From the IMG/VR virus record IMGVR_UViG_3300026518_000537, positions 1 to 35,159 of that record: 35,159 bases of DNA; one strand, given 5' to 3'. The notes beneath the pieces were generated by a model. That model was not told the DNA's origin and did not search any database. It saw only the letters and a program-made list of their open reading frames with translations. The stretch comes from a virus. This document shows positions 7,689 to 34,862 of this stretch, piece by piece. A program made the translations under genes and the position numbers. Each line of letters starts with the position of its first letter. Positions within the stretch are counted from its first letter, which is position 1.

Positions 7689-7919
7689 TTATAGCTTTTT
7701 ATTAAGGCCATCAAAAAAATAGCTTACATCACATTTTAAAGCATCTGAGAAGTGCCAAAGTTTACTTGCGCTAATATTATTTCTTCCTTTTTCGTAATGC
7801 TGTATTTGTTGGTACGTAGACTTCATTATTTGAGATAGTTCAACTTGAGTAATGTTTCTTTTTCGTCTTAAAGCTTTTATTTGCTGGCCTATATGCTCAT
7901 TAACAATTTTTTTACTCAC
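7689..7919 (-). CDS. XRE-family HTH transcriptional regulator
   Basis: A 76-residue protein that is almost entirely one XRE HTH domain: IGQQIKALRRKRNITQVELSQ, recognition-helix region STYQQIQHYEKGRNNIS, then LWHFSDALKCDVSYFF. The 'QQIQHYEKGRNNISASKL' style is common in alphaproteobacterial regulators. It has no effector domain, so it probably acts as a Cro-like dimer. Its start overlaps the upstream 61-residue gene by 8 bases and it precedes repeat copy B and the BI-1-like gene, which it may control. Confidence 0.88.
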   Translation of the reverse strand: MSKKIVNEHIGQQIKALRRKRNITQVELSQIMKSTYQQIQHYEKGRNNISASKLWHFSDALKCDVSYFFDGLNKKL

Positions 7920-8097
7920 TAGGTGATTTTTTATCTTTCTTTAATTCTTCTTTCTTCGCTTCTTCAGCCAGCTTATAAAATTCTTCAAGAGATTTAATTT
8001 GTTTCCCTATTAGTTTCTTAAATCTTTCCTCGCCTATTTTTTCCATTACCTTGTTAAATTCTTCTCTACTTATTTGTTCCATTTTTTTACTCATCAT
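7912..8097 (-). CDS. Small charged hypothetical protein
   Basis: A 61-residue, Lys/Glu-rich helical protein (MMSKKMEQISREEFNK... ending KKDKKSPSE). A second ATG one codon later is an alternative start. It sits between RusA and an HTH gene, overlapping the HTH start by 8 bases, which supports real translation. No family recognised and no membrane segment. Confidence 0.55.
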   Translation of the reverse strand: MMSKKMEQISREEFNKVMEKIGEERFKKLIGKQIKSLEEFYKLAEEAKKEELKKDKKSPSE

Positions 8098-8113
8098 TTC
8101 TTTGCTTTTCTTG

Positions 8114-8503
8114 TTACTCTGTTAAACTATAAATTTTACAATTAACAGTATTTCCTCTCTTTCCAGACCAGCACTGAACATTGCAGTTAATTTTGCTATC
8201 ATCTATCAAAACATTCATCTTAACAAGGAAATCTGTTAAAGTTTTTTCATAGTTTGCACAATCTCTGATTCTATTGTCAGGTCTGTTAAATAAATACAGA
8301 GCGGCATAAGGTGAAGAAATCTTATTTGTAAAGTTTATTAATCCCTTTTGTTCTATGAAAGAGCGTTTAGCTATGCTTAACCAATAATTATAGCTTTTGC
8401 TTTTTATCCTTTTCTTTCCTGCATTAACGTAACATGAGTTAACAGAAGGAGGGAAGGGTAATGTAACTTCAAAACAAGGTTTTCTTATGTACCACTCAAA
8501 CAT
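8114..8503 (-). CDS. rusA: RusA-like Holliday-junction resolvase, one catalytic Asp position altered
   Basis: A 129-residue protein with RusA features: TLPFPPSVNSCY at 14-25, RIRDCANYEKTLTDFL at 78-93 and VLIDDSKI at 98-105. RusA cleaves four-way junctions, which would debranch recombination or replication intermediates before packaging and fits the exonuclease/RecT/SSB set. In E. coli RusA the catalytic stretch reads RDLDN with D70 and D72. Here it reads RDCAN, so D81 is kept but the second Asp position is Ala83, while the later DD (101-102) is present. The enzyme may be weakened or use another acid. The gene overlaps the upstream HTH gene by 19 bases. Confidence 0.82.
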   Translation of the reverse strand: MFEWYIRKPCFEVTLPFPPSVNSCYVNAGKKRIKSKSYNYWLSIAKRSFIEQKGLINFTNKISSPYAALYLFNRPDNRIRDCANYEKTLTDFLVKMNVLIDDSKINCNVQCWSGKRGNTVNCKIYSLTE

Positions 8504-8871
8504 TCTTCTTCTTGAGATTCTCTAAAACATTGAATAAGCCCTTTGATTTTATTCTTAATTTTCTGATCTCTTATTGCGTTAAAATCATTGAGTAACGTAA
8601 TTGACTGAGAATTGCAGTCTTTCCAGTCAATTTCTATTTCCTCGTCAATTCCTTCGAAAAAGTAAGATGTATTAGTTTTAAATAGTTTAGATAATAGAAA
8701 AAGCTTGCTTGCACTAATACGGTTTTCTCCTGATTCATATTTTTGAACTTGTTGAAAAGTTGTACCTATTTCATCGCCAATATCTCTTTGTGTTAAGCCA
8801 CAAACTTTACGTTTGATCTTTAATTTGTTTCCAACATGAAGATCTATTTTGTTGCATAATACTTTATCCAT
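8485..8871 (-). CDS. XRE-family HTH regulator with C-terminal extension
   Basis: A 128-residue protein with an XRE domain at about 12-75: GNKLKIKRKVCGLTQRDIGDEIG, FQQVQKYESGENRISASKLFLLSKLF, then SYFFEG. A C-terminal helix of about 45 residues (IRDQKIKNKIKGLIQCFRES) probably mediates dimerisation. This is the architecture of alphaproteobacterial and phage repressors of the SinR/CI-short type. Two copies of the perfect palindrome TGAAGCTTCA stand in its upstream region, so autoregulation is likely. It leads the operon running through RusA towards the BI-1-like gene. Confidence 0.87.
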   Translation of the reverse strand: MDKVLCNKIDLHVGNKLKIKRKVCGLTQRDIGDEIGTTFQQVQKYESGENRISASKLFLLSKLFKTNTSYFFEGIDEEIEIDWKDCNSQSITLLNDFNAIRDQKIKNKIKGLIQCFRESQEEECLSGT

Positions 8872-8910
8872 TTTATTTACCTTTGTTTGTTAGTTGAAGT
8901 TTGTAATTCT

Positions 8911-8949
8911 TGAAGCTTCACTGCACTAATGTTTTTGAATGAAGCTTCA
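8911..8949. promoter_or_regulatory. Twin palindrome TGAAGCTTCA, operator candidate
   Basis: A perfect 10-bp palindrome at 8911-8920 is repeated at 8940-8949, centre to centre 29 bp. A related half-site, TTGAAG, lies at 8894. The pair sits 40-78 bases before the ATG of the HTH gene that starts at 8871. Paired palindromes at this place are typical repressor binding sites. Confidence 0.6.
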
Positions 8950-8960
8950 ATTTTACAAAA

Positions 8961-9929
8961 TTATTTTGGTGAAATTAAAATTCCTCCATTCTCTACACCC
9001 GAATAAACAGGTAGTTTTCCATCCCATTTTTCCATTTGTTTGTATTTTATTAAATTAGAGCTTAGAGAGGAGTTTATCAATCTATTGGCTTTAGCTTGAG
9101 ACTTAGCAACCTCCAAGATCGAAGCAGATTTTGCTTGAGCTTGCTTAACAGCAATTTGTCTTCTTTGTTCAGCTTGTAAAACTTCATATTTTAATTGCTT
9201 TTCTTTTTGGTTAGCCTCTTCGACAGCTTTAATTTTGTTTCTTATGATCTCATCAAGAGTAAATCTTCTAATATTTACCTCTTCAATAAAAAAGAAGGTT
9301 TCTTTCTCAAAAGCTAAATCCAAAGCTACTTTTAATTCGTTAGATATTTCTTGCCTTTTAGTAGAAACTTGATCGGCGGTGTAGCTTCCCAATACGTTCC
9401 TAGAAACTTCTAGTACTACTGGGTTTATTCTTTTGTTAAAAAAATTACTTCCATCGTTAATGAATATTGAGTAAACGGTATCAGGGTTAACCTTGTATCT
9501 TAAAGATAATTCTAAACCTATATTTAAGTTTTTTTCATCTAATACTGTTATTTTAGGAAGTTGGATAATTCCAGTTTTAGATTCTGCTTTATCAGATGAT
9601 TCATACCCATAATGAGCTGTTTTGCTTCTTACATCAACTTTAGTAACTGAATGTATAAGAGGAAGTTTGAAATGCACACCGGGTTCTCTAGTATCTTTAT
9701 CAAATACTCCTAGTTTAGAAACTAGTCCTACTTTTCCACTTGGAATCACAAACCAAGAGCCTAATAACAGTGTTAACGCTGTAAATATTAAAAATCCGTA
9801 ATAGCCTAGTATGTAAGCAACGTGAGAAAATTCGTTATAATCATCAATTGTTCTGTTGGCATTAAAAGGGTCCTGTTTTTTTAGTATGAACTCGGATTTT
9901 TGTAAGAATTTGGGGTTTAAAATATTCAT
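8961..9929 (-). CDS. SPFH / band-7 (prohibitin/HflC-like) membrane protein
   Basis: A 322-residue protein. A transmembrane segment at about 39-61 is followed by the SPFH start VIPSGKVGLVSKLGVF. Then come REPGVHFKLPLIHSVTKVDVR near 81-101, the prohibitin-homology beta region, IEEVNIRRFTLDEIIRNKIKAVEEANQ near 215-240, and a long Ala/Lys/Glu/Gln coiled coil (ILEVAKSQAKANR). This is the layout of stomatin/prohibitin/HflC proteins, which form large membrane cages. HflK/HflC surround and modulate FtsH in bacteria. It is full length. It lies in an accessory block with a BI-1/YccA-like gene 1.4 kb downstream on the same strand; a role in FtsH control or membrane protection is inferred. Confidence 0.88.
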   Translation of the reverse strand: MNILNPKFLQKSEFILKKQDPFNANRTIDDYNEFSHVAYILGYYGFLIFTALTLLLGSWFVIPSGKVGLVSKLGVFDKDTREPGVHFKLPLIHSVTKVDVRSKTAHYGYESSDKAESKTGIIQLPKITVLDEKNLNIGLELSLRYKVNPDTVYSIFINDGSNFFNKRINPVVLEVSRNVLGSYTADQVSTKRQEISNELKVALDLAFEKETFFFIEEVNIRRFTLDEIIRNKIKAVEEANQKEKQLKYEVLQAEQRRQIAVKQAQAKSASILEVAKSQAKANRLINSSLSSNLIKYKQMEKWDGKLPVYSGVENGGILISPK

Positions 9930-9986
9930 AATATTAATTTTAAGTTTGTTTGTATTTTTTTATAAATTTGTATTTTGCTAATTTTA

Positions 9987-10223
9987 TTAGTTTTTATTCA
10001 TTTCATTACCTTTTTTTAAGTTAGTTAAAATTTCATCAGCTCTTGGCGAATCAACAACAAATGACATCATTTCTCCTGTTGAATCATCTAAGATTGGTGT
10101 AATAGCGCAAATACCGCTGAAGGTTTTGAGCATATTGTTTGAGAATTTATCAAAGTTCTCTTTGTCTTCTTTGGTTTCGAAGCCACCTGCATGTAGCTCT
10201 ATAAATCTTGCTTTAATTTTCAT
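9987..10223 (-). CDS. Small phage hypothetical protein
   Basis: I place the start at the ATG at 10221-10223 (MKIKARFIELHAGGFE...), giving 78 residues. Longer upstream starts would overlap the neighbouring gene in another frame by over 100 bases, whereas this start overlaps its stop by only 11. The protein looks like a small alpha/beta cytoplasmic protein, FETKEDKENFDKFSNNML followed by strands. There are no recognised motifs or membrane segments. Confidence 0.6.
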   Translation of the reverse strand: MKIKARFIELHAGGFETKEDKENFDKFSNNMLKTFSGICAITPILDDSTGEMMSFVVDSPRADEILTNLKKGNEMNKN

Positions 10224-10395
10224 ATTTGCACCATTCTTTAGGGGCTTCCTTGTATTCAGGCTCTCTGTCTTCAAATACTGAGAGTATGAATTCAATTCCG
10301 TTATAGAGACCAAGTTCATAAGGAGACTTTTGCCATGCACTTTCTTTTGTCTCTAGTAAGTAGTTTAATTCTTCTAATTTTGCTTCAATACTCAT
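10213..10395 (-). CDS. Small conserved-looking phage hypothetical protein
   Basis: A 60-residue protein, MSIEAKLEELNYLLETKESAWQ..., with LYNGIEFILSVFEDREPEY. It resembles small accessory proteins seen beside early genes in many phages (helical, acidic, containing a 'G.e.ilsvfe.rep' pattern), but no function is known to me. GGTAAG stands upstream of the ATG. It lies 6 bases after the zinc-ribbon gene and is coupled to the next gene by an 11-base overlap. Confidence 0.62.
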   Translation of the reverse strand: MSIEAKLEELNYLLETKESAWQKSPYELGLYNGIEFILSVFEDREPEYKEAPKEWCKYEN

Positions 10396-10401
10396 GAGTT
10401 C

Positions 10402-10575
10402 TTACCAATAACGTCGTTTAGTGAATATGAATTGGCTATTACCGCAAAATTTGCACTCATACCAGTGGTAACTGTAAGGTTTGCGAAACAACCCTTTCTT
10501 TCCGCAACATGAGCATCTTTTTCTGGCGCAATATTCTAAGAATTTCTTGATGTAATTAATGATTTTTCTCTTCAT
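10402..10575 (-). CDS. Small zinc-ribbon protein (57 residues)
   Basis: A short open frame of 57 codons: MKRKIINYIKKFLEYCARKR, CSCCGKKGLF, then YECKFCGN and a basic tail ending KRRYW. The two pairs CxxC (CSCC) and CxxC (CKFC), 20 residues apart, form a typical zinc ribbon. The ends are rich in Lys and Arg, so nucleic-acid binding is plausible. The start overlaps the stop of the preceding HTH gene by 20 bases and the gene ends 6 bases before the next, so it fills what would otherwise be a 160-base gap in the operon. The coding claim rests on the CxxC pairs and fit. Confidence 0.7.
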   Translation of the reverse strand: MKRKIINYIKKFLEYCARKRCSCCGKKGLFRKPYSYHWYECKFCGNSQFIFTKRRYW

Positions 10576-10852
10576 ATCTTTCTAGTTTTACAAAATTAAT
10601 GTTTTCGAGTTTTTTTTTATTATCTAAACTTGATTGCATGCCATCTAGAAAAGAGTTAACTCTTGTTTTGAGGGCTCGAGATAGGCGGTATAAATTCACT
10701 AAATTTATGTGATCTATTCCTTTTTCATATTTTGATATTTGTTGAGTAGAAACACCCAGAAAATCTCCTAGATCAGTTTGGGTCATGCCCATGCACTTTC
10801 TCTTGTGTCGAATCTTTTCACCGATGTATTTGTTTATAAATTCCTGTTCCAT
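10556..10852 (-). CDS. XRE-family HTH regulator
   Basis: A 98-residue protein with an XRE domain at about 10-70: IGEKIRHKRKCMGMTQTDLGDFLGV, STQQISKYEKGIDHI, NLYRLSRALKTRVNSF. A short charged tail follows. It is a Cro/CI-like regulator of the same style as those at 7.7 and 8.5 kb. It lies 13 bases downstream of the 273-residue replication-associated gene and overlaps the zinc-ribbon gene by 20 bases, so it is part of the leftward early operon. Confidence 0.85.
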   Translation of the reverse strand: MEQEFINKYIGEKIRHKRKCMGMTQTDLGDFLGVSTQQISKYEKGIDHINLVNLYRLSRALKTRVNSFLDGMQSSLDNKKKLENINFVKLERYEEKNH

Positions 10853-10865
10853 TTTTTTAATGTAG

Positions 10866-11687
10866 TTATGCTGTTTTTAATATTTGTTTGATTGATAGTT
10901 CGTAATCCTGCATGAATTTAATTTCTTCAGGGCTTAAAGTTTGTTTTTTGTATTTCTTGTTTGAAAGATGCTGATACTTTCTGTTTTTTAGCTCTTTCTG
11001 TTTCTCAATGTAAGATTTGTCATTTTTCTTAAGCGTTGAGCTAAGTTTTAAAATAATGCCATCTATTTGGCTTTCAGACTTATCTTCAATCTGTGGTTTT
11101 TCGTATTGAGATATGAATTGAAGGCATATTTCTTCGTTGCCAATTTTGTTTATTGTTTTGTTACTTCCAGATGTAAAACTAGGAGTAAATTTTTGCTTAT
11201 TCAAATCTTTGCAAGTAAGCCACATTTCCTTCAAATCTTTTTTAAGCCAGTGTGATTCCCTTCGGTTAGGGTTGTCTTCGTCTAAAAGCCACCTTAAATT
11301 GGCAATACCGTCCATTTCATAAATAGTTTGATTGCTAAAACCATTATCCATGATTACTCCACCACCATATTTTACTGAGTTTATGGCAACGAGAATCTTG
11401 TTAGCTTCTATTTCAGCTTGTTCTTGTTCGCTGTGTAAAGAGCCTGACCCTTCAATCATTTTGATAAAGTAAGCAGGGGATGGTTTGCCATTAAAACCAA
11501 ATATTTTATTCCACTCTTCGTTATCGACATTGAGAACTATGTGATCGACGCATTGGGTAAGTTCTTTGTCGCTTATGCCTTTAGCTGTAAGGATGCTTTC
11601 CAATGCTTTTAGGTAATCCTCAGAGCAGCTAAAACCGTAAATATCTTTAAGAAGTTTAATGTTTTTTGCGAATTCTTTTTTATTCAT
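10866..11687 (-). CDS. Replication-associated protein (DUF6475-like), possible helicase-loader analogue
   Basis: A 273-residue soluble protein, MNKKEFAKNIKLLKDIYG..., with WNKIFGFNGKPSPAYFI near 58-75 and a long Lys-rich C-terminal region (KKYKKQTLSPEEIKFM). The N-terminal pattern 'kllk.iyg......yl......l.....lt.......ilg....kPsp..f' resembles phage DUF6475 proteins found next to DUF1376-type replication proteins. It lies 8 bases downstream of the DUF1376 gene on the same strand, the place where a helicase loader or primosome helper usually stands. That role is inferred; there is no Walker motif. Confidence 0.55.
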   Translation of the reverse strand: MNKKEFAKNIKLLKDIYGFSCSEDYLKALESILTAKGISDKELTQCVDHIVLNVDNEEWNKIFGFNGKPSPAYFIKMIEGSGSLHSEQEQAEIEANKILVAINSVKYGGGVIMDNGFSNQTIYEMDGIANLRWLLDEDNPNRRESHWLKKDLKEMWLTCKDLNKQKFTPSFTSGSNKTINKIGNEEICLQFISQYEKPQIEDKSESQIDGIILKLSSTLKKNDKSYIEKQKELKNRKYQHLSNKKYKKQTLSPEEIKFMQDYELSIKQILKTA

Positions 11688-11695
11688 ATTGACCT

Positions 11696-12640
11696 CTATT
11701 CTGCGTTTGCGTAGGCTAATATAGCATCGTCGCTTTCTCGATCTCTTCTTTGCGCAGCAGTCTCACAAGAGGCTGATTGATTGGCGACGATTTTCCTTGA
11801 ATCTATTTCCTGATAATCTTCCCAAGCTCTGTCATTTAGAAACTTAGGTGCAGATTTAGAAAATTGATTGTTTTGCATGCAGTGCTTCAGGTAGTTTTGA
11901 AGCCCTAGCATTATTTCCTTGAATGTTTGTTCAGGTTCTTTCGAGTTGTTTAGAATCAAATTAAACTTTTCCTTTGAAGGTTTTTTAGCTCCCTTAGCTG
12001 GGGATGATCCGCTAGAAGTTTCTACAGGAATGTAAAAAGACCAAAATTCTTGAAACTGTTCTTCAAAATCTTTTTTTGCTTTAGTTTTTTTAATTATATT
12101 AGATTTATCTAATATATTCTGGTTCTGGTTGGTTGAACGATCGTTTAACGGTTTTGGAACGAGTGAACCATCAATCGTTATATCATTGGTTCTATCAATC
12201 GTTGCATCATTCGTTAAACGGTTGATAGAATTCTCTTTAGCTTTTTTTTCTTTTTTCTTTGCTGCTGCTTTTTTACCTGCCTCGGATAATTTCCTGTATT
12301 TCTCTGCTTGGTGAGCTATTACCTGTTCGACTTTTTTGTTTAAATAAGCTCCATTTTTGTATGTAAAAAACATTTTTAACACATTATCTACAGCTTCTCT
12401 TTCTTCTTCAGAAATTGCTCTACACAATCTGTACATTCTTAAGTTATTTTTAGATTGGTTAACGGATGAGTCATCAATCGTTTCATCATTCGTTGAACGA
12501 TTGATGCAGCAAGCTAAAGAACCTGTGCTGTAGTAATGGTCCATAAGTAAGCGGTAAGCTCCATGTTCAAGTAATGAAAGTTGTTGGGTGTCTCTAGCAT
12601 AATCTCCTGGATAATGCGGATACCATTGAAGTCCTGACAT
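11696..12640 (-). CDS. DUF1376/YdaU-like phage replication protein with internal iterons
   Basis: A 314-residue protein. Residues 1-45 (WYPHYPGDYARDTQQLSLLEHGAYRLLMDHYY) are the DUF1376 signature of phage replication initiator-like proteins, related to winged-helix O-type proteins. The middle is Lys-rich (GKKAAAKKKEKK) with repeated peptides TNDETID, TNDATID and TNDITID. The C-terminal part (FEEQFQEFWSFYIPV, NYLKHCMQ) resembles the tail of phage O/DnaT-like proteins. The DNA encoding the TND-TID peptides contains 22-bp repeats (12170-12494), like the ori iterons inside lambda gene O. It is first in the leftward operon. Confidence 0.78.
   Translation of the reverse strand: MSGLQWYPHYPGDYARDTQQLSLLEHGAYRLLMDHYYSTGSLACCINRSTNDETIDDSSVNQSKNNLRMYRLCRAISEEEREAVDNVLKMFFTYKNGAYLNKKVEQVIAHQAEKYRKLSEAGKKAAAKKKEKKAKENSINRLTNDATIDRTNDITIDGSLVPKPLNDRSTNQNQNILDKSNIIKKTKAKKDFEEQFQEFWSFYIPVETSSGSSPAKGAKKPSKEKFNLILNNSKEPEQTFKEIMLGLQNYLKHCMQNNQFSKSAPKFLNDRAWEDYQEIDSRKIVANQSASCETAAQRRDRESDDAILAYANAE
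12170..12494. repeat. Three 22-bp iterons, candidate replication origin
   Basis: Repeats of the form ATCAATCGTT-NN-ATCATTSGTT lie at 12170-12191, 12194-12215 and 12473-12494. The palindrome AACGATCGTT lies just left of them near 12136-12145 and the inverted motif AACGATTGAT at 12496-12505. All lie inside the replication-protein gene, in the stretch encoding TND-TID peptides. The placement imitates lambda-type ori sequences in gene O. Protein-level repetition is the other possible cause. Confidence 0.5.
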
Positions 12641-12661
12641 AATTTACCTCTTTCTTTTTAT

Positions 12662-12709
12662 AAAAGGGCATGCTATTTAATCAGTCATTATCAAATGACA
12701 TGCTCTTTT
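12662..12709. other. Large nested inverted repeat in the divergent control region
   Basis: Outer arms AAAAGGGCATG (12662-12672) and CATGCTCTTTT (12699-12709) pair with one G-T. Inner arms GTCATT (12684-12689) and AATGAC (12694-12699) pair perfectly around ATCA. It lies between the replication gene (leftward) and the HTH operon (rightward). It could be an operator pair, a leader structure of the minus-strand mRNA, or part of a small RNA ending at the terminator that follows. Confidence 0.6.
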
Positions 12710-12734
12710 GTATGTTATTTATGATACTACGCTA

Positions 12735-12769
12735 GGAGGCGCATCTAAGGTGCGTCTCCATTTTTTTTT
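12735..12769 (+). terminator. Strong Rho-independent terminator
   Basis: A 9-bp stem, GGAGGCGCA (12735-12743) with TGCGTCTCC (12751-12759), has one G-U and a 7-base loop, followed by A and nine T on the plus strand. It is GC-rich in a very AT-rich area. No recognised plus-strand gene ends here, so it may end a short plus-strand RNA. Confidence 0.8.
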
Positions 12770-12790
12770 AAACATATAATCAATAAATGA

Positions 12791-12812
12791 ATAATATGTT
12801 TACTCATATTAT
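12791..12812. promoter_or_regulatory. Inverted repeat upstream of the triple-HTH operon
   Basis: ATAATATG (12791-12798) and CATATTAT (12805-12812) are perfect inverted arms around TTTACT, 57-78 bases before the first HTH gene. The centre GTTTACT is shared with the repeat at 6815-6844. An operator for one of the HTH proteins is the likely role. Confidence 0.5.
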
Positions 12813-12868
12813 GTATCTTTACAAATTTAATAATCAACTATAAGTTTAAAAAAAAATTAATTTAATGA

Positions 12869-13303
12869 ATGCCAAACAACACTGGTTTTAAGAATACAAA
12901 GCTTCTTATAAAAGAAATGCGTTTAAAAAGAGGTTTGAGTCAATCAAGGTTGGGAGAGGCTTTAGGGCTGTCTCAAGCTCAAGTTGGTAAGATTGAAAAT
13001 GGTGATTCTGTTAATGGTTCAAGATTAGAAGATATAGCTAATTTTTTTGGTTGCTCAGTCTCTGATTTATTTTATGGCGCTGAAAAACAAGAAGATTTTG
13101 TTCCAGACAAATCTCTTTCTCAAGATATACATGATGCAATATCTTATGTTTTGAAAAATAAGAAACTTTCTATAAGCAAAGAGTCTTATGCTGATGCGTT
13201 TTCGTTCATTTATAATGAAATATCTAATTCCAGCAAAAATAAAATTGAGGCCTTGCAAGAATCTAATATAGCTAATGTTATCAAATTAGTTAGAGAGGGT
13301 TAA
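12869..13303 (+). CDS. HTH regulator, first of three tandem paralogues
   Basis: A 144-residue protein with an N-terminal XRE domain (KTKLLIKEMRLKRGLSQSRLGEALGLSQAQVGKIENGDSVNGSRLEDIANFFGCSVSDLF) and a C-terminal domain of about 65 residues. The latter reads SLSQDIHDAISYVLKNKK, ESYADAFSFIYNEIS, KIEALQESNIANVIKLVREG. Its two neighbours share both parts. The C-terminal domain is not one I know; it is probably helical and used for dimerisation or sensing. Translation start: ATG at 12869, preceded by an AT-rich leader with little Shine-Dalgarno. Likely role: phage immunity or accessory gene control. Confidence 0.82.
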   Translation: MPNNTGFKNTKLLIKEMRLKRGLSQSRLGEALGLSQAQVGKIENGDSVNGSRLEDIANFFGCSVSDLFYGAEKQEDFVPDKSLSQDIHDAISYVLKNKKLSISKESYADAFSFIYNEISNSSKNKIEALQESNIANVIKLVREG

Positions 13304-13321
13304 TAATATTTTTATTTAATC

Positions 13322-13756
13322 ATGTATAAGAAAAAGCTCAGTACTAAGCTTCTTATTAAGGATAAAAGGAAGGTTACTGGAAAGAGTCAGGCGGACTTTG
13401 CTAATATATTGGGAATATCTAGAACTCAGTATGGTAAACTTGAAAATGGTCATCATTTAAGTCTATATTGGTTGGAAAAGATAGCTGAAATATTAAAGTG
13501 TTCTGTTACTGATCTTATCTCTGAAGGTAGTATTTATAATTTTAGGGATAAGGTTATTAATGAGCCGCTTGCAGAAGATATTCATGAGGCTTTATCTTAT
13601 GTAGTGAAAAAAAACAACGATACAGTAAATACAAAGCAGTATGCCAATGCATTTTTGAAAATATACCAGGGGATTTCATATGAGGGGGTGAAAAAAGTTG
13701 AAGCTTTGCAAGAGCCTAATATATATGATGTGATTAGATTGATTAAAGGTTGTTGA
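13322..13756 (+). CDS. HTH regulator, second of three tandem paralogues
   Basis: A 144-residue protein of the same architecture as its upstream neighbour: XRE domain with KVTGKSQADFANILGISRTQYGKLENGHHLSLYWLEKIAEILKCSVTDLI, then the conserved C-terminal domain LAEDIHEALSYVVKKN, KQYANAFLKIYQGIS, KVEALQEPNIYDVIRLIKG. It begins 18 bases after the first copy. The recognition-helix region (SRTQYGKLENG) differs from the other two (SQAQVGKIENG, SQTQVGKIESG), so it probably binds a different operator. No stop or frameshift disrupts it. Confidence 0.82.
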   Translation: MYKKKLSTKLLIKDKRKVTGKSQADFANILGISRTQYGKLENGHHLSLYWLEKIAEILKCSVTDLISEGSIYNFRDKVINEPLAEDIHEALSYVVKKNNDTVNTKQYANAFLKIYQGISYEGVKKVEALQEPNIYDVIRLIKGC

Positions 13757-13770
13757 TAAGATAGTAAAAA

Positions 13771-14196
13771 ATGTCTGATGCTAGGAAGGTAGAAAATAGT
13801 TTATTGGTCAAAGAGTTTAGAGTTAAAGCCGGTCTAACCCAGAGAGAATTTGGGAAGAAGGTTGGGCTATCTCAGACGCAAGTTGGAAAAATTGAATCAG
13901 GTCTGCATGTAAGTCTTTACAGGTTAAATCAAATAGCGAGGGTTTTAAATTGCAGGGTTTCGAATTTGATAAATGATGGTGACAAAGATTTTGGTCCTGA
14001 CGAGTCATTGGCTAATGATATTCATCAAGCGATTTGCTTTGTTGATAAGAATAAAAGCTCTTCTCTTTCTAGGCGTGATTATACCAGTGTTTTTGTAAGA
14101 ATTTATAATCAGATATGTGAGCCTGGTAAACTTAAAATAGAGGTTCTGCAAGAGGAAAATATACATAATGTTATTAAGCTTGTCCAAAACGGATAG
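13771..14196 (+). CDS. HTH regulator, third of three tandem paralogues
   Basis: A 141-residue protein with XRE domain (LLVKEFRVKAGLTQREFGKKVGLSQTQVGKIESGLHVSLYRLNQIARVLNCRVSNLI) and the same C-terminal domain (LANDIHQAICFVDKNK, YTSVFVRIYNQIC, IEVLQEENIHNVIKLVQNG). It starts 14 bases after the second copy and ends about 50 bases before a terminator hairpin, so the three form one transcript. The three have diverged well at both DNA and protein level, so the duplication is old and retained. Confidence 0.82.
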   Translation: MSDARKVENSLLVKEFRVKAGLTQREFGKKVGLSQTQVGKIESGLHVSLYRLNQIARVLNCRVSNLINDGDKDFGPDESLANDIHQAICFVDKNKSSSLSRRDYTSVFVRIYNQICEPGKLKIEVLQEENIHNVIKLVQNG

Positions 14197-14246
14197 CAAT
14201 ATCAATTTGCGTTGTTGATTTTATCACAATAGCTTCTAAAAATAAA

Positions 14247-14274
14247 AAAGCCCCGTTGGTAGCGAGGCTTTAAA
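14247..14274 (+). terminator. Terminator hairpin after the triple-HTH operon
   Basis: AAAGCC (14247-14252) pairs with GGCTTT (14266-14271), with additional pairing CG/CG and one mismatch inside; A-rich before and T/A-rich after. It works in outline for either strand. It separates the HTH operon from the SLATT-like gene, which then needs its own promoter. Confidence 0.55.
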
Positions 14275-14336
14275 ATAAATTTTGTAATTTTTATTATGTT
14301 AAAGAATAAAGATGTTAAATCTTTTAGTAAAGAACT

Positions 14337-14909
14337 ATGGTTACAAGACAAAAAAAATCTACCATTTCCTCCAACTCCTCCGCCTCCAAAAAAGTAGCTC
14401 TGGAAAGAGGTTGGTGGAAAATTGAGTTTGATGCAGATAGGCTTCAACTTTATAACAAAACTCGTTATAATTTCTTTATAAGGTTAAGAAAGTTTATATC
14501 TTTCGTTTCGCTGCTTTTCTCATCATCTACAATATATTCTTTTTTTAGTGATAGTTCGCAATATTTTGTTGCAGTATTTGGAATTGTAATGGTTGCTATA
14601 TTTATATTTGATATTGTCTTTGATTTATCTGAGAGAGCTGCAAAACATTACGATTTGTATAAGCGTTCACATGCTTTATTGGTTAAAATAGAGCTGTTAG
14701 AATCTAAAGACTCTAAGCTATTAAATAAGTATAAAAAAGATTTTAAATCTATAGAAGTTGAGGAGCCTCAAATATATAGAGCTTTAGGTGTCTGTTGTCA
14801 TAATCAAGTGGTGGAATCTAGGGGTTTAGATGAAAAATACCGTTATAAAATGACAATAGCTCAGAAGCTTTTTATGAATGTATATTCCTATCCTCATTTA
14901 AAATTTTAA
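14337..14909 (+). CDS. Two-TM protein resembling SLATT effector domain
   Basis: A 190-residue protein with a basic, Ser-rich N-terminus, then LYNKTRYNFFIRLRK. Two transmembrane helices follow at about 50-70 (FISFVSLLFSSSTIYSFF) and 75-97 (FVAVFGIVMVAIFIFDIVF), then SERAAKHYDLYKRSHALLVKIELLES and a long charged cytoplasmic tail. This is the arrangement of SLATT domains: paired TM helices followed by a helix with Ala/His/Tyr. They are predicted pore-forming effectors linked with nucleotide signalling and phage defence. A superinfection-exclusion or abortive role in the lysogen is inferred. No cyclase or sensor gene adjoins it, so the match is structural only. It lies 10 bases from the stop of the convergent repressor gene. 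Confidence 0.5.
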   Translation: MVTRQKKSTISSNSSASKKVALERGWWKIEFDADRLQLYNKTRYNFFIRLRKFISFVSLLFSSSTIYSFFSDSSQYFVAVFGIVMVAIFIFDIVFDLSERAAKHYDLYKRSHALLVKIELLESKDSKLLNKYKKDFKSIEVEEPQIYRALGVCCHNQVVESRGLDEKYRYKMTIAQKLFMNVYSYPHLKF

Positions 14910-14919
14910 AGCCTCTTTT

Positions 14920-15234
14920 TTATTCGTCTTTAATTATATTCTTGATTCCTTCTTTTATTTCCTTTCCTCTCATTCCTATAGCTTCATAATCGCTATCTTT
15001 TCCTTGGTAGAGTAGGTAGCTTTCATCTACATCTAATATCTCTGCAATGGCTTTGATTCTTGCTAAATTTAGGCTCTGAACTCTTCCATTTTCTATTTTA
15101 TGAAGACCTGAAACTGAGCATCTTATTTCTGGTTTGTATTTTTCTAGAGCCTCACTAAGTGAGTTCAAAGTGTGGCCATTTTCTATCCTGGCTTTTCTGA
15201 TTTTTGCCCCCACAATAGATACTTCGTTGCTCAT
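14920..15234 (-). CDS. XRE-family repressor candidate (phage switch)
   Basis: A 104-residue protein with an XRE domain at 8-78: VGAKIRKARIENGHTLNSLSEALEKYK, CSVSGLHKIENGRVQSLNLARIKAIAEILDVDESYLL, followed by a short helical tail. It is the only minus-strand gene between 12.87 and 21.25 kb and is divergent from the recombination/integration operon, the usual place for a CI- or C-like repressor. Its upstream region (15235-15400) holds motifs like the 20-bp repeats at 15644-15703, and a TACACC/GGTGTA inverted repeat. It lacks a peptidase domain, so induction would not be by LexA-type self-cleavage. Confidence 0.78.
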   Translation of the reverse strand: MSNEVSIVGAKIRKARIENGHTLNSLSEALEKYKPEIRCSVSGLHKIENGRVQSLNLARIKAIAEILDVDESYLLYQGKDSDYEAIGMRGKEIKEGIKNIIKDE

Positions 15235-24242: not shown

Positions 24243-24848
24243 TTATGAATATCTAAAAATTATTTGTGTGTTAGCTGGTTTAAGTTTGTCAAAAAGACAT
24301 TCTAAAATCTCCGGAGCCTGATCTGTTAATTCAAATGGTAGTTCAAGTGGCAAACCAGTGGGTTGCAGAGATTGATTTAGTGTTACTATTATTGTAAAAG
24401 GAGCCTCATCTGGATCTAAAAGAATAAGGGGTAATGTTGCAGGAAGAACTGCTTCATCTACTCCATTGCTTACTGTTACATCGAATCCAAATGTTTGTGC
24501 TAAATCTTCAAATTGTTTTGCAGTCGATACATTAACACCGGCTAGCTTAACTAATATATTTCTTCTTCTATCCTCTAAAGAGCCAGTGTTACTAAAGCAA
24601 TCATCAGGTATCCCAACAACTCTTTCCCATTCTTCTATTAATGCTGTGGTCTGGTTGATGTCATATTCGTTAGATACTTCATTAACCTTATCTCTAAAAC
24701 GAAGCCACTGACAAGCCAATCCTGTTAGCACTTTACGTAAGTTGCTACCTTCTATATTTTTAGCAAGGTGCAACCTATCATCTCTTAAATATTGAGCTAA
24801 TACATCAGTTTGTTCTGCTTTTGTTCTAGGTTCTAAGAAGTTTGTCAT
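24243..24848 (-). CDS. Mu gp48/YmfQ-like baseplate protein (DUF2313)
   Basis: A 201-residue protein with EWERVVGIPDDCF near 73-85 and TGSLEDRRRNILVKLAGVNVSTAKQFEDLAQTFGFDVTVS near 88-127, the DUF2313 pattern ('ll..wE...glp......rr..v...~~~.~g.t...l..la..lG'). It joins baseplate to fibre. It overlaps the gp47 homologue by 4 bases (ATGA). Confidence 0.85.
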   Translation of the reverse strand: MTNFLEPRTKAEQTDVLAQYLRDDRLHLAKNIEGSNLRKVLTGLACQWLRFRDKVNEVSNEYDINQTTALIEEWERVVGIPDDCFSNTGSLEDRRRNILVKLAGVNVSTAKQFEDLAQTFGFDVTVSNGVDEAVLPATLPLILLDPDEAPFTIIVTLNQSLQPTGLPLELPFELTDQAPEILECLFDKLKPANTQIIFRYS

Positions 24849-26191
24849 GGATAAGTTACCGTTCCTAAAGTTGGTAATTCTCCAGAGTTAACTGTTATAT
24901 CTCCAGCTGGACTACTAAGAGTAAATGTTGGGGTATTTCCTGAACTATCTACTACAGAAAATACAATGTTATTATATTCTTCAGAAGTAAGGTCCTGAGC
25001 TATATTTGTGTTGTTTCTAAAGTAATCATTAAGTGCTTGTGAGATAGCACTTTGCATATCATCGGTATTTGGGCTAAGAGATGTAAATGTGAAGTCAACT
25101 GGCACAGCAGTTGGCGAACTAACTATAACAAAGCTATCAGGTGTATTGGCTGGCTTAACACCAGTTTCAGGGTCGATGATAGCATTCTTTACTGTAGTTG
25201 CTTGGCCAGCTGTCGGTATAATATTTGTGTCGTTATCTCTAGTGAAATATATAGTTACCATGCCCGCACTAGGAGTTGCATCCTCAACCCATATTCTTGT
25301 TACTCCAGGAACCTGTTCTTTTATAAAAACTGATAGACCAGCATTAGTAAAAGGAGCTGAGAAATTACTAGTTCTTTCCTGAAGCCTTGTTCTTAAGCTA
25401 TCGTCGCTTTCTATGTCTAAACCACCGATTAAACCATCTTGGTTAACTAAAACCGTATCATTCACATTAACAATAGGGCTTACTAAAGTTAATTGTGCTC
25501 CTGCACCAGCATTACCATCAGATCCAAATTCTGAAGCTGTAATATTACCAAAACCTGAAACATAATTTAATTGAATAGTTCCAGTTGCAGGGCTTACTGG
25601 AGTTCCACTAACTTCATAAGTAAACTCATTAGCGCTTGTAACAGTAATAACTGTATTCGTAACATTATATTCTGACTGATCTGCTCCTGTTATGGAATCT
25701 ATAACAAAACCCGTAGCTAAATTATGATTACTAACAGTAGTTACAATTGCTGTTGTTCCAAGCCTTGTAATAGATGAAATATTAATTGTTTCACTAGATA
25801 CAGTTATATCAGAGTCTGTTGCATATTGTATTCCATTAGCTCTTTGAACTAAAGTTGATGATGGAATCACTGATCCACTATCTCCTGAGAAAACAGCAAC
25901 CCCAGAAGATTTTGTTGCTATCGCTCTATTGATACCATAATAGGCAGCCCATCTTTCTAGATATATACCAGTAGCAGACCAAGGAAATAATTGGATAACT
26001 AACTGTCTTAATACGTCATTATTCTCATCAAATCCAGCCGCTGTAGAGTCAACAAGTCCTTTAGCAAAGCTATTTCTTATTGTTGGGTCTACATGTTTAC
26101 TAGTATCCAGCTGTCCAGAATTAATAGATAATATTAGATCATTGGCAATCTTAGACTGTATCTGTTGTATTGTTGAAAATTCAATTGCCAT
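24845..26191 (-). CDS. Baseplate J / Mu gp47-like protein
   Basis: A 448-residue baseplate wedge protein. GFDENNDVLRQLVIQLFPWSATGIYLERWAAYYGINRAIATKSSGVAVFSG at about 35-87 is the family's beginning. Further on GGLDIESDDSLRTRLQERTS and WVEDATPSAGMVTIYFTRDND match the baseplate J domain. An insert of about 60 residues in the middle (SRLGTTAIVTTVSNHNLATGFVIDSITGADQSEYN) looks like an Ig-like decoration. It overlaps the gp46 stop by 1 base. Confidence 0.9.
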   Translation of the reverse strand: MAIEFSTIQQIQSKIANDLILSINSGQLDTSKHVDPTIRNSFAKGLVDSTAAGFDENNDVLRQLVIQLFPWSATGIYLERWAAYYGINRAIATKSSGVAVFSGDSGSVIPSSTLVQRANGIQYATDSDITVSSETINISSITRLGTTAIVTTVSNHNLATGFVIDSITGADQSEYNVTNTVITVTSANEFTYEVSGTPVSPATGTIQLNYVSGFGNITASEFGSDGNAGAGAQLTLVSPIVNVNDTVLVNQDGLIGGLDIESDDSLRTRLQERTSNFSAPFTNAGLSVFIKEQVPGVTRIWVEDATPSAGMVTIYFTRDNDTNIIPTAGQATTVKNAIIDPETGVKPANTPDSFVIVSSPTAVPVDFTFTSLSPNTDDMQSAISQALNDYFRNNTNIAQDLTSEEYNNIVFSVVDSSGNTPTFTLSSPAGDITVNSGELPTLGTVTYP

Positions 26192-26637
26192 TATCTAAAC
26201 GTGTTTATAAATAAATTATAATAATTACTGTCTTCTTGTGTTTGGTTTGTGAGGTTGATGTTAATTTCAACTCCACCATCAACTCTTTGTGCTTCAACCT
26301 CGCTATCAGAAATAATGTTGTCATCTATCATCCAACTAAGCCCCTCAGAAACAGTGTTTTCTATTGATAATAGGTTACTTTCTGTGTTCTTAGCTTGATC
26401 AATAAATAGCCACAATTTACTTCCAACCTCATAGTCTTGAATTGCACTAAATTCATTTGTAAAGTGTCCACGTCTTAATGTAGGTTCTGTAACTTCCGAT
26501 CTAGAAGCTCTTTTTTCACCAAACACAGACAGGTAAAGAGCAGTGTCTAAGCCATCAGTTAGTTCAAAATCACCATTTAGGAAATCAATATCCCAACAAC
26601 TATTTGAATCTTGCTTTAGCTTAATATCTCTTGCCAC
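26191..26637 (-). CDS. Mu gp46-like baseplate protein
   Basis: A 148-residue protein with DIDFLNGDFELTDGLDTALYLSVFGEKRASRSEV, then LRRGHFTNEF and GSKLWLFIDQ, matching phage GP46 (gp25-like sheath-initiation/wedge group). GTG start (MARDIK) at 26637. It lies downstream of an inverted segment that holds the spike gene. The family connects the baseplate to sheath initiation. Confidence 0.86.
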   Translation of the reverse strand: MARDIKLKQDSNSCWDIDFLNGDFELTDGLDTALYLSVFGEKRASRSEVTEPTLRRGHFTNEFSAIQDYEVGSKLWLFIDQAKNTESNLLSIENTVSEGLSWMIDDNIISDSEVEAQRVDGGVEININLTNQTQEDSNYYNLFINTFR

Positions 26638-26690
26638 TTTAATAAATTTACTATTGTCAATTACCTAATCTTAGCTTTAAAGCGGCTGAT

Positions 26691-26713
26691 TTCATTGACA
26701 AAAAATATCATTA
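26691..26713 (+). promoter_or_regulatory. 23-bp repeat (copy 1) with TTGACA, upstream of the spike gene
   Basis: Identical to 34840-34862 over 23 bp. It begins TTCATTGACA, so a consensus -35 at 26695-26700; TTAAAC follows after 18 bases. This makes it a promoter candidate for the plus-strand spike segment. The second copy lies at the end of a minus-strand gene, where it does not fit this role. Confidence 0.45.
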
Positions 26714-26755
26714 TCAGATTAAACCCTAGAAATAGGAGAGTCTTAAGGTTAAAGT

Positions 26756-27310
26756 TTGAGCACACTTATAGGAAATAAAATGCAAGGAATGGATATTCTA
26801 AAAGGTTATATTACTTCGACTTCAGAAGGTGGCACAAAAGCTCAGGTTCAAACTTTAAAAGGTCGTGTCATAAATGATGTAACTCTTTTATATCCTTATG
26901 GTCATGCTTCTAACATCCAAAATGATGATTCAAGCTTAGTTCTTTTATTCAGTGTAATGGGAAGCAAAACAAATATCTTTGGAGTTCCATTTAACATACC
27001 TTTGCAGCCAGAATTATCTACAAGCGAAGTTAGTACGGGTAACTTCAAAAAAGGTAATAAAATTACTTTCAAAAGCAATGGTGATATTGAAGTCGTAACT
27101 GATTCAGATATATTAGAAACTGTTGCTAATTTAACTACAACAGCTACAGGTAAAATCACTTTATCTGCTCCAGAAGTTGAATTAGGAGATGCGGTTGATC
27201 TAGCTTTAAATCAAGCAGCTGTTATGCAAGTTGTAATCCCAGGTGGAAGTAGTGCAGGTACTTATCCAGTAACAATAGTTAGTGCAGGCCAAACTAAAGT
27301 AAAAGCCTAG
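26756..27310 (+). CDS. Mu gp45-like baseplate spike, on inverted strand
   Basis: A 184-residue protein with the gp45 arrangement: N-terminal OB-like part (GYITSTSEGGTKAQVQTLKGRVINDVTLLYPYGHAS) and a C-terminal repetitive beta-helix part (KITFKSNGDIEVVTDSDI, GKITLSAPEVELG). Proteins of this type form the membrane-piercing tip of contractile tails. Starts: TTG at 26756 with AAGG 8-11 bases upstream, or ATG 26780 preceded by AGGA. It sits precisely between the gp44-like and gp46-like genes, its standard place, but on the plus strand, opposite to all tail genes. Confidence 0.85.
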   Translation: MSTLIGNKMQGMDILKGYITSTSEGGTKAQVQTLKGRVINDVTLLYPYGHASNIQNDDSSLVLLFSVMGSKTNIFGVPFNIPLQPELSTSEVSTGNFKKGNKITFKSNGDIEVVTDSDILETVANLTTTATGKITLSAPEVELGDAVDLALNQAAVMQVVIPGGSSAGTYPVTIVSAGQTKVKA

Positions 27311-27329
27311 CATTTTACTTTTAAAAAAT

Positions 27330-27358
27330 CCGTTATATGTTGTATTCAACTTATACGG
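27330..27358. other. Inverted repeat after the spike gene
   Basis: CCGTTATATGTTG and CAACTTATACGG are imperfect inverted arms around TATT in the 55-base gap before the first secreted-protein gene. A mild terminator or operator is possible. No T run follows. Confidence 0.35.
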
Positions 27359-27365
27359 TAAAATC

Positions 27366-27758
27366 ATGATTAAGGCTCTTATTTTTCTAACAGTATTTGT
27401 TAATAATGCTGTTTATGCAGAGGGTGGCTTGGAAAATAAGTTCTATAAAGAACTAAGTAAGAATAAAAAAGAAAAAATATTGTTCATACCTAAAGGTATA
27501 CCTTTTTGTAATAAAGCTGCATCTATTAGGAAGGTTGAAGAATATAGATCCATTTCTGGAAAAAAAATCACTAAAAGGAATTTAAAAAGAATAGGTTGTT
27601 CAAGAACAGCATATGGTTCAAAGGCAATTATACTTGATGTTAGTAAAGATAAACAAGTTTATGAATTAGCCTTCAGACCATGGGGGAAAAAGAAAAAATA
27701 TGTAGAATCAGCTTATTTTATACATTCAGATGTAACTTCCTTAGTTAATAAGAAATAA
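27366..27758 (+). CDS. Secreted small protein, first of two paralogues
   Basis: A 130-residue protein with a signal peptide (MIKALIFLTVFVNNAVYAEGG, cleavage likely after YAE or AVYA) and a basic mature part: KILFIPKGIPFCNKAASIRKVEEYRSISGKKITKRNLKRIGCSRTAYG, then VYELAFRPWGKKKKYVES. The two cysteines (FCNK, GCSR) are shared with the next gene, so a disulphide is probable. No family recognised. It lies within the inverted spike segment, a moron place, and may act on the host envelope or on other cells. Confidence 0.7.
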   Translation: MIKALIFLTVFVNNAVYAEGGLENKFYKELSKNKKEKILFIPKGIPFCNKAASIRKVEEYRSISGKKITKRNLKRIGCSRTAYGSKAIILDVSKDKQVYELAFRPWGKKKKYVESAYFIHSDVTSLVNKK

Positions 27759-27843
27759 ACTAAGTAATTAGCATAGAGTAGGGGCTTGTTTTACTTTTGC
27801 AGAATCTTGTGTATCTTTAAAGTTTAAATTTCAAAATTGAATT

Positions 27844-28275
27844 ATGATTAGAATATTAGTAGTTTTATTAACACTTTTTGTAAGCAATGCTTTTGCTAAA
27901 AATGTTGATGTCAATAAAATGACCCAGGAAGAATTGTTTAAAATTTATGATAAAGCGCTTAATAATTCTCCTGAAAATCAAATTATATTCATACCTAAGC
28001 AAACTCTTCACTGTTCAGGATTGACTGGCTTTAAAAAAGCTTATAACCAACTATTATTATCAAGCGGAGAGCTATCAAAAGGTTTTTTATCCTCCTTAAA
28101 CTGTTCAGCGATGCATGGATGGGCACATGGGATCGTAGTCAGTATACATCAAGATAATAATGTCTATAGGTTACTATATAGAAGTCCTTTCTCTAAAAAG
28201 AATATGAGAATTAGATACTTTCATGCAAGCCATTTGACCACGTTTAGTGATATGAAAAAACGAGAATTAAAATAA
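27844..28275 (+). CDS. Secreted small protein, second paralogue
   Basis: A 143-residue protein with signal peptide MIRILVVLLTLFVSNAFAKN and the same order of features as its neighbour: IIFIPKQTLHCSG, KAYNQLLLSSGELSKGFLSSLNCSAMHGWAHGIVVSIHQDNNVYRLLYRSPFSKKNMRIRYFHASHLT. IxFIPK, the two Cys, the VYxLxxR strand and an 'SxHxTxF'-like end are common to both. Spacing of 85 bases suggests a separate or shared promoter. Family unknown; it would be exported to the periplasm. Confidence 0.7.
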   Translation: MIRILVVLLTLFVSNAFAKNVDVNKMTQEELFKIYDKALNNSPENQIIFIPKQTLHCSGLTGFKKAYNQLLLSSGELSKGFLSSLNCSAMHGWAHGIVVSIHQDNNVYRLLYRSPFSKKNMRIRYFHASHLTTFSDMKKRELK

Positions 28276-28320: not shown

Positions 28321-29454
28321 TTAAGCAGCTTTTATCAAGTTACTTGAAAATTGATTTGAATTAGAAAGTCTTACAGCTTTATCAACGTCTAATGTAAATG
28401 CACCTTGATTCACTATTACTAAGTCAGTAAAGCTACCTTCTAGAGATTTTGAATATGTAACACCTTGTATTAAGAAAGTCCCATTCAGCTGGCATTTATC
28501 ATCGATTACTTGAACTAGGGTGTTTTGTTTCCAAATCAACCCTGCATCGTTATAATATCCTTGAAATCTGCAATTATATCTTTCACCTTTAGCTCTTCTT
28601 ACATTAACGCTCCATTTAGCTAATTCAGATAAATATTCACTATTTGTGGATTCAGAGTTATTAATTGAAATAGTTCTTGTGGCTCTAATGACTACGTCTT
28701 TAGATGAACCAGTTGGAAATACGGATCCAATATTATTTTCTAGGCTTTGAGAGCTATACTCAACAACATTAAACCTATCACCAGTATTAATATCTATGTT
28801 TGCAGTTAAAATATTGTTATTACGGTTACTAAAAGTGCTAATAAGCGCTCCTCCTGAATTTTGTGAGCCTTCTCTTGTAATAACTATGTTACCATCAGGG
28901 TCAGTAGTTAGTAATACTTGTAACTTTCTTGCATAAGTATCTAGAAACTGGAATATGCTTTGTCCAAACTCAGCGGTAACCACATTTTCTGTAAAACCAT
29001 TACTATTTGGCGACGCTGCAACTGAATCTAGAGTCTGTATATCAGGTACATTGTTAATTACCTTTATATCATTAAATCCATGCTCTTTAAGTACTATCTC
29101 AATAAGTCTAGGGAAAGACTTTTCTTTGTAAGCCGTTTCTTTAGCAGAACTATCAACCAAATCCCCAGTCTTATCTCTCCCACCAACACTAATAACATGA
29201 GAAGCTGCATCATAGCTTATATTTAGAGTCTCAACCGTTCCTGTAATTATCAACTCATCATCAATAAATATCCTAGCTACATCCTGAGCCTTAATGGGGT
29301 TTTCAATAACTCTTTCCCCGTTAACAACAATTTCATTAACTGAAGACGTAAAAGAAAACTGCCCAGTAAATGCTTCCATTGACTTAGAAACACTAATTGA
29401 TTCAAAGCCTCTATATCTAATTCCGTTTATTTCTAAGAAAATCTCGTTTTCCAT
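28321..29454 (-). CDS. Mu gp44/P-like baseplate hub protein
   Basis: A 377-residue protein: ENEIFLEINGIRYRGFESISVSKSMEAFTGQFSFTSS at the start, then PIKAQDVARIFIDDELIITGTVETLNISYDAASHVISVGGRDKTGDLVDSSA and KLQVLLTTDPDGNIVITREG. These are typical of the gpD/P-like hub (late control protein D type). It forms the centre of the baseplate under the tube. It overlaps the N-like gene by 1 base. Start and length are as expected. Confidence 0.87.
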   Translation of the reverse strand: MENEIFLEINGIRYRGFESISVSKSMEAFTGQFSFTSSVNEIVVNGERVIENPIKAQDVARIFIDDELIITGTVETLNISYDAASHVISVGGRDKTGDLVDSSAKETAYKEKSFPRLIEIVLKEHGFNDIKVINNVPDIQTLDSVAASPNSNGFTENVVTAEFGQSIFQFLDTYARKLQVLLTTDPDGNIVITREGSQNSGGALISTFSNRNNNILTANIDINTGDRFNVVEYSSQSLENNIGSVFPTGSSKDVVIRATRTISINNSESTNSEYLSELAKWSVNVRRAKGERYNCRFQGYYNDAGLIWKQNTLVQVIDDKCQLNGTFLIQGVTYSKSLEGSFTDLVIVNQGAFTLDVDKAVRLSNSNQFSSNLIKAA

Positions 29455-33042: not shown

Positions 33043-34593
33043 TTATTCAAAAGTTGGTGTAATATTAATAATAACGTTTCTCACTTGAGTAACGATGTTT
33101 GCAATGCTTTCAGCTGTAATAGTTCCAGTAGCTAAATTTATAGCTACGCTTTCTAAAGCATCTCTAAAAGCTTGTCTTTCTTCAGCACCTGCTCTTAAAA
33201 GAACATATGAATTATCCCCATTATCTCCTGAAAGAACTGAATAATAACCCATCATTATTGCAATGAATCCCTCTCTATTAACCATAGGTCTTCCAGCGAT
33301 TAACTTTCCAGTAGTTAATATATGTTGTGAAAGGTCTGCTTTTAGGTTATTGAAAATGTACTCCCTAGCAAGTGAGAGGGTATCAACATAATTTAAATAC
33401 TTAAAAGTAATATCAGGGTTACCTAAAGTATTGGTTTTATATGTAGTTACTGCTTCATTTGAAATAACTACAGTGTTTGAAGGGTTGTTGCGTAGTAACC
33501 AACCCCCTGAATTTTCAAGCTCTAAAGCTTCAGCATTTGTAAAGTCATCTCCTGTTTCAATAGTTGGAAGGTTTGCAAATGGAGTGTTATGGTAAGGAAT
33601 ACCTCCAAAGAAAAATCCTCCTGTTCCTTCTCCATTAGTAACTATTGAACTAGTGTTAGAACCAACAGTTAATCTTAAACCTCTATATGCTGCTGCTTGA
33701 GCTGCAATTACTATTGGGCTTTCAAATATAGCACCGCCTTTGTGATCAGCGTCAGAAACTATTTTGTTAGGAATATAAGCTAAAGTTCTTTGATTCAGCG
33801 CATCTAAGGCAGTGTTGTGATTAGCGTATGTATCAGTTACAGAAACTATACCAACGCCGTCTAAAATGTTATCATCTACATTAAATCTAGACTCTGTAAA
33901 ATCAGTTAATGTAGAAATCCCCCATTCAGCAGGGTAAACAATACTGTTAAATCTTGAATCATCTACTACATCAAATAAAGTAGTAAGCACTGGGTCAGTA
34001 GCACCTCCTGTAAGGGCAGTTGAAGTCACAGAGAGTCCTGCTACTGATCCAGCCTTTCCAACGCCAATTGTATTTCCTTGCGTCCCTGCATTTACAGCAG
34101 TTAAAGTTACAGTTCCTGTTGCATTAGCAGCAGTTACAGGGCTATCTAAGTTTGCAGTTATAGCCGCCACCAAAGCGTCTCCCACATTAGTAGCAGTATC
34201 ACCGCTAGATATATCAAGTTTGTATGCTCCATTTTCTTTACTATCTACATATACAGTTATTGAACCTGCTTCAGTAGCAGTTCCTGAAAATACAACAGTC
34301 CCAGTTGCACTAACTCCTGAACCATTATCTGTCAAACCAATTGCCGACACTTGAGGCCTTACTCTTGAGATAGATAGTTCTTTCATTAAGTCTCTTCCAG
34401 CTTTTGCCATTTGAGAATTTCTACCAAAAGCGTTGTTAATTTCTTCTTCACTTATCAAACCTTCAACAAGAGCACCACTTGTTGCATTTCCAGATGTCAT
34501 TTGCGCAATCAATAAGATTTTATGTTGATCTGGAGTTTGTGGAGTTTGTGCTGATAAGATATTTGCTGTAGTTCTAGGTAATGCGTTTGCCAT
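33043..34593 (-). CDS. Contractile tail sheath protein
   Basis: A 516-residue protein, Mu gp39/L-like: LPRTTANILSAQTPQTPDQHKILLIAQMTSG at the start, EEEINNAFGRNSQMAKAGRDLMKE, GTVVFSGTATEAGSITVYVD with an inserted beta domain (residues about 105-185), then FNSIVYPAEWGISTLTDFTESRF and SREYIFNNLKADLSQHILTTG. Length and order are typical. It makes the phage a myovirus. ATG at 34591-34593 overlaps the DUF2635 gene by one base. Confidence 0.93.
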   Translation of the reverse strand: MANALPRTTANILSAQTPQTPDQHKILLIAQMTSGNATSGALVEGLISEEEINNAFGRNSQMAKAGRDLMKELSISRVRPQVSAIGLTDNGSGVSATGTVVFSGTATEAGSITVYVDSKENGAYKLDISSGDTATNVGDALVAAITANLDSPVTAANATGTVTLTAVNAGTQGNTIGVGKAGSVAGLSVTSTALTGGATDPVLTTLFDVVDDSRFNSIVYPAEWGISTLTDFTESRFNVDDNILDGVGIVSVTDTYANHNTALDALNQRTLAYIPNKIVSDADHKGGAIFESPIVIAAQAAAYRGLRLTVGSNTSSIVTNGEGTGGFFFGGIPYHNTPFANLPTIETGDDFTNAEALELENSGGWLLRNNPSNTVVISNEAVTTYKTNTLGNPDITFKYLNYVDTLSLAREYIFNNLKADLSQHILTTGKLIAGRPMVNREGFIAIMMGYYSVLSGDNGDNSYVLLRAGAEERQAFRDALESVAINLATGTITAESIANIVTQVRNVIINITPTFE

Positions 34594-34839: not shown

Positions 34840-34862
34840 TTCATTGACAAAAAATATCATTA
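34840..34862. repeat. 23-bp repeat (copy 2)
   Basis: Exact copy of 26691-26713. It ends on the TAA of the right-edge gene (34860-34862) and fills most of the 57-base gap before the DUF2635 gene. See the finding on this repeat. Confidence 0.6.

Follow-up and report, generated by a model that had tools for sequence, protein, structure and literature searches.

The central spike is part of the hub from which a phage baseplate is built, and three copies per virion are needed; with so few copies and such a role, when and in what order it is expressed is a real question. This question arises at a locus in which the spike gene lies on the strand opposite to the tail operon around it: how did the arrangement come about, and how would the spike and the genes beyond it be transcribed? 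The window, i.e. the whole stretch of DNA analysed, is the entire IMG/VR virus record IMGVR_UViG_3300026518_000537 (35,159 bp). Its late genes are encoded on the minus strand. They comprise terminase and portal and, starting at the opposite end of the record, a series that leads from sheath, tape measure, DNA-circularisation protein and the gp44-like hub, past the inverted spike, to gp46, J and gp48. The features of the locus are:

24243–24848, minus strand: gp48-like baseplate protein (Pfam Phage_Mu_Gp48, 2e-21)
24845–26191, minus strand: Baseplate J, gp47-like (Pfam Baseplate_J, 2e-43)
26191–26637, minus strand: gp46-like baseplate wedge protein (Pfam GP46, E 2e-14), the first gene past the inverted spike
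26638–26779, no strand: AT-rich divergent gap between spike and gp46
26691–26713, minus strand: putative late box at gp46, TAATGATATTTTTTGTCAATGAA on the minus strand, ~54 bp away from the start codon of gp46
26780–27310, plus strand: Mu gp45-like central spike of the baseplate, inverted with respect to the tail genes around it
27366–27758, plus strand: cargo gene 1, coding for a small protein whose N-terminus resembles a signal peptide
27844–28275, plus strand: cargo gene 2, paralogue of cargo gene 1, predicted small alpha/beta domain
28321–29454, minus strand: gp44/GpP-like baseplate hub (phrog_177, 2e-62; Pfam GpP domains), convergent with the spike unit
33043–34593, minus strand: tail sheath (phrog_165, 2e-47), downstream of the second late box
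34840–34862, minus strand: second putative late box, upstream of the small gene lying before sheath

The first-pass annotation had described a spike inverted at its standard place between gp44 and gp46, and had called an inverted tail gene very unusual. The strands and coordinates bear out the first point and the second was upheld; a search of the literature for an inverted spike or tail gene yielded no relevant precedent. Position 26691, from which that annotation began the unit, is the start of a 23-bp repeat and not of a gene.

The spike open reading frame encodes 176 residues when read from an ATG with AGGAAATAAA upstream; the list of open reading frames gives a TTG start at 26756. The protein matched Pfam Phage_Mu_Gp45 weakly (E 5e-4, 20.4 bits, below the curated cut-off of 24.1), and 5 of 28 spike homologues matched this family at E≤0.001. 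A profile built from the 28 members matched the solved Mu gp45 (9ki1) with an E of 0.011. The best PDB match of the predicted fold (pLDDT 78, pTM 0.57) was Mu gp45 (9ki1_V, E 4e-6 with Foldseek), followed by the R2 pyocin spike (4s37). On the basis of the weak Pfam match, the profile match and the predicted fold, assignment of the window spike to the Mu gp45 type holds. It resembles the central spikes of contractile tails (Mu gp45, P2 gpV and R2 pyocin) in its modelled fold and in its place between gp44- and gp46-like genes, but its gene runs against the other genes of the tail operon and its C-terminus, which ends in ...AGQTKVKA, lacks the HxH metal-binding tip. Such a tip is found in several gp45-type spikes and was not treated here as essential to the family. 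The spike alignment contains three tip types within one clade (HTHSGV-type, ...HGLIA and ...AGQTKVKA), the HTHSGV-type being kept in one subclade (L081, L082, L084, L090 and L093). The median dN/dS of the spike homologues was 0.10 over 400 pairs, which are not independent, and each of ten longer contigs carried exactly one spike gene. Judged by these values, the flipped spike is under purifying selection and still functional.

The first-pass annotation had proposed looking at the same locus in relatives. With the window spike alone as query, no relative was found in viral contigs or in phage and plasmid collections. Relatives were reached via baseplate J instead and reduced to 90 loci, in nearly all of which an iterated spike profile placed the spike. 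Among the 85 loci with both J and spike (window included), the spike was inverted in 60 (36 non-redundant) and on the same strand in 25, and the order gp44-spike-gp46-J was constant in both groups. In a J tree of 59 non-redundant rows, a single branch (SH-aLRT 100) parted the inverted from the same-strand loci. This corresponds to one change of orientation, compared to 18.5 for shuffled labels, and none of 500 shuffles gave as low a number. As read from this tree, the inversion of one structural tail gene is a clade-defining single change, dating from one ancient event. The gp45-like spike would have flipped, without leaving its place between gp44 and gp46, in the ancestor shared by this Mu-tailed clade; the one branch and the one change were observed, and, the tree being unrooted, we infer the direction of change from the same-strand state of Mu and other known phages. 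Two same-strand relatives are peculiar in other respects: L061, a Mu-like baseplate region, comes from a record titled Thermoplasmatales archaeon chromosome (MAG), and in L052 (2065–6222) the spike profile matches an open frame of more than 4 kb, possibly a fused gene.

A single origin with no reversal on the tree is also what would be expected if the inversion were an accident of no regulatory advantage, tolerated thanks to a nearby promoter and hard to revert; any regulatory benefit is so far hypothetical. The dedicated late box at gp46 and the cargo genes, described below, suggest later accommodation, with which an accidental start is still compatible. As an account of the locus, we consider the accident rather unlikely. 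In the reading that we prefer, the spike would be the first gene of a separate transcription unit, which diverges from gp46 and converges on gp44; the layout was observed, and transcription would follow it. As the inverted spike interrupts the late operon, late transcription would have to restart at gp46.

The 23-bp repeat occurs in two exact copies in the window (26691–26713 and 34840–34862; 0 matches expected by chance), the only two found there, and both lie upstream of minus-strand genes. In relatives with both sites, a common word of 11–23 bp recurs on the same strand and at the same two places, ~66–76 bp before gp46 and 251–269 bp before the sheath gene. The word itself varies by lineage (TAATCATAGTTTTTAGGGTTG in L066, TAGTGATTTTACCTATT in L073 and TCTTGGTTTTCGGATTTT in L076). 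In eight lineages, sheath site and gp46 site scored on average 18.1 against each other within a genome versus 10.6 between genomes, an agreement reached by 3 of 40320 permutations; the opposite-strand control gave no difference (9.94 versus 9.96). Longer contigs of relatives contain 3–5 boxes on the late strand, upstream of the portal, head, sheath and gp46 genes and sometimes further downstream too. In non-inverted relatives, nothing longer than 10 bp was common to the corresponding sheath and gp46 places, and the L089 subclade had no clear sheath-gp46 box pair (score 8.5). A -10 element at a fixed distance after the box, sought in relatives, was not clearly conserved.

These properties fit a late-promoter or late-activator element that reads away from the spike, and the box at gp46 probably restarts late transcription beyond the flipped gene, from a copy of the phage's own element of ~20 bp. 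Position, strand and co-variation of the box were observed, and from these we infer its promoter activity. The late promoters of phage Mu (lys, I, P and mom) depend on one activator, protein C, which binds upstream of the core promoter (PMC4461284). The likeness to the C-dependent promoters is that one element heads several late-gene groups on the late strand; unlike there, the box sequence differs between lineages, and an activator of the Mor/C family (PF08765) was found in 0 of seven records, which may be fragments. The co-varying boxes offer a route to the late regulator in these uncultured phages, for which the present data suggest a link to Rickettsiales.

Minus-strand late transcription cannot express a plus-strand spike, as the first-pass annotation had recognised and the strand layout confirms, so a divergent spike promoter is a logical need. 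The gap at 26638–26779 must, by this reasoning, contain or adjoin the start signals of both the gp46 side and the spike side. In most relatives the start codons of spike and gp46 are ~60 bp apart, with a box that overlaps the spike start or abuts it. A promoter different from the late box would then transcribe the spike, from within the short AT-rich gap or from just inside gp46. Exact TATAAT occurred on the spike strand of 6 of 22 gaps, no commoner than in shuffled sequences (4.1±1.7).

In principle, one bidirectional late promoter at the gp46 site could drive gp46 in one direction and the spike in the opposite one, which would leave the spike a late gene. The box adjoins the spike start in relatives and some gaps contain TATAATTATA-like symmetric sequence; bidirectional promoters that arise from sequence symmetry have been described in bacteria (PMC10268837). 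However, neither strand of the gap is enriched in TATAAT, and the box is directional, with no copy reading toward the spike in the window or in the relatives examined. We regard a shared promoter as possible but rather unlikely.

The convergent 3' junction of gp44 and spike appears to act as an insertion slot, whose accessory genes would mostly be read with the spike; the gene arrangement was observed, and co-transcription is suggested by it. The stop codons of gp44 and spike overlap by 4 bp in 25 loci, and the spacing in the remaining loci ranges from 24 bp to 5.4 kb. Slot open reading frames of at least 85 residues are on the spike strand in 45 of 51 cases, a count in which the slot boundary is open for some contigs without gp44. 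Among the products of the slot genes are DUF3440/PAPS-reductase, ParB-like, ectoine-synthase-like cupin and SNF2 helicase proteins (L018, L063, in part L068, L008 and L091). The slot of L010 has a gene for nicotinamide phosphoribosyltransferase (NAMPT) and that of L044 one for a GNAT acetyltransferase; secreted proteins are encoded there in the window and in L037, L078 and L080. A large late-strand slot frame is present in L081–L083 and L090, and in L081–L083 it is DNA polymerase beta-clamp-like. Matches of the slot DUF3440 proteins to DndC were weak. In G012 (24791–26981), a DUF3440 and ParB-like pair lies away from the spike slot, and the slot there has other genes.

For the window, two secreted-protein paralogues had been claimed behind the spike in the first-pass annotation. 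Both frames are indeed on the plus strand; the paralogy is weak (29% identity), and the signal peptides were read by eye from the sequence rather than predicted by a program. The two proteins share 29–30% identity with L037 and have weaker similarity to L078 and L080. Anti-phage models did not match either protein, and the predicted fold of cargo gene 2 gave no confident PDB match. A periplasmic role, e.g. in superinfection exclusion or lysis control, is our guess.

Phage morons are accessory genes set among structural genes, in many cases in the opposite orientation. The unit shares with them the accessory genes in a structural region and the opposite strand, but it starts with a structural gene, the spike. 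Were it moron-like, a host-type promoter, possibly early or lysogenic, would drive it, the cargo would be the selected payload and the spike would merely be carried along. The cargo of relatives is indeed metabolic or accessory and mostly on the spike strand. Against this, the gap between gp44 and spike is at most 24 bp in 34 of 50 measured loci, so cargo is unnecessary for keeping the inversion, and the promoter scan located no such promoter. On balance, a moron-like unit seems rather unlikely. The slot is in any event a place for seeking accessory genes.

Overall, the locus is likely to be best explained as a whole by a single ancient inversion, a late-box restart at gp46, a separate promoter for the spike and a cargo slot behind it. 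More tentatively, this whole clade of contractile-tail phages may have shifted its spike from the late operon to a separately timed unit that also bears host-modifying cargo, with a lineage-specific late promoter restarting transcription beyond it. A natural clade in which the spike is uncoupled from the tail operon, together with same-strand relatives, makes the question of timing testable.

The first-pass annotation had taken the TTGACA in the 23-bp repeat as a candidate promoter for the spike. A plus-strand TTGACA does lie 85 bp upstream of the spike start. A scan of the spike strand around it found no promoter-like pair above threshold, and there is no acceptable -10 at 16–18 bp; moreover, the second copy would then drive antisense transcription of the gene ahead of the sheath operon, and the homologous boxes of relatives, 3–5 per longer contig, read in the late direction. 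We give this reading very little credence, and on the strand of the copies and of the relatives' boxes we rejected the 23-bp repeat as the element serving the spike.

An assembly error or an invertible (phase-variable) segment, both raised at first and favoured by nothing further than the layout itself, are very unlikely to the point of being negligible, because one orientation recurs in 36 of 36 non-redundant inverted lineages, in contigs of numerous metagenomes as well as two Rickettsiales MAGs, with a single change on the J tree, low dN/dS and one spike gene per contig; strong inverted repeats were not seen at the flanks of the segment, where the best pair is 73% complementary over 26 nt, and both orientations do not occur among close relatives.

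The two MAGs with clade members are G001 (which holds L060/L132) and G300 (L133 and L138), and Rickettsiales-like hosts are tentatively suggested, the MAG members sitting on short contigs. The window encodes a Bax-inhibitor-1-like membrane protein (6892–7605, Pfam Bax1-I, 6e-52) with matches of up to 51% identity in Rickettsiales genomes, which is compatible with such a host but not specific for it. Phage WO of Wolbachia, also a phage of Rickettsiales, has inversions as well (PMC9203015); there, whole modules are inverted between variants, whereas in the present phages the inversion affects one gene within the baseplate module and holds for an entire clade. Elsewhere in the window, an SPFH/Band 7 protein is encoded at 8961–9929, and a ParA-like ATPase and a small gene (3764–4712) lie between terminase and portal. 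The region 7689–15234 contains seven small HTH_3/HTH_19 (Cro/C1-type) regulators, three of which are tandem paralogues (12869–14196).
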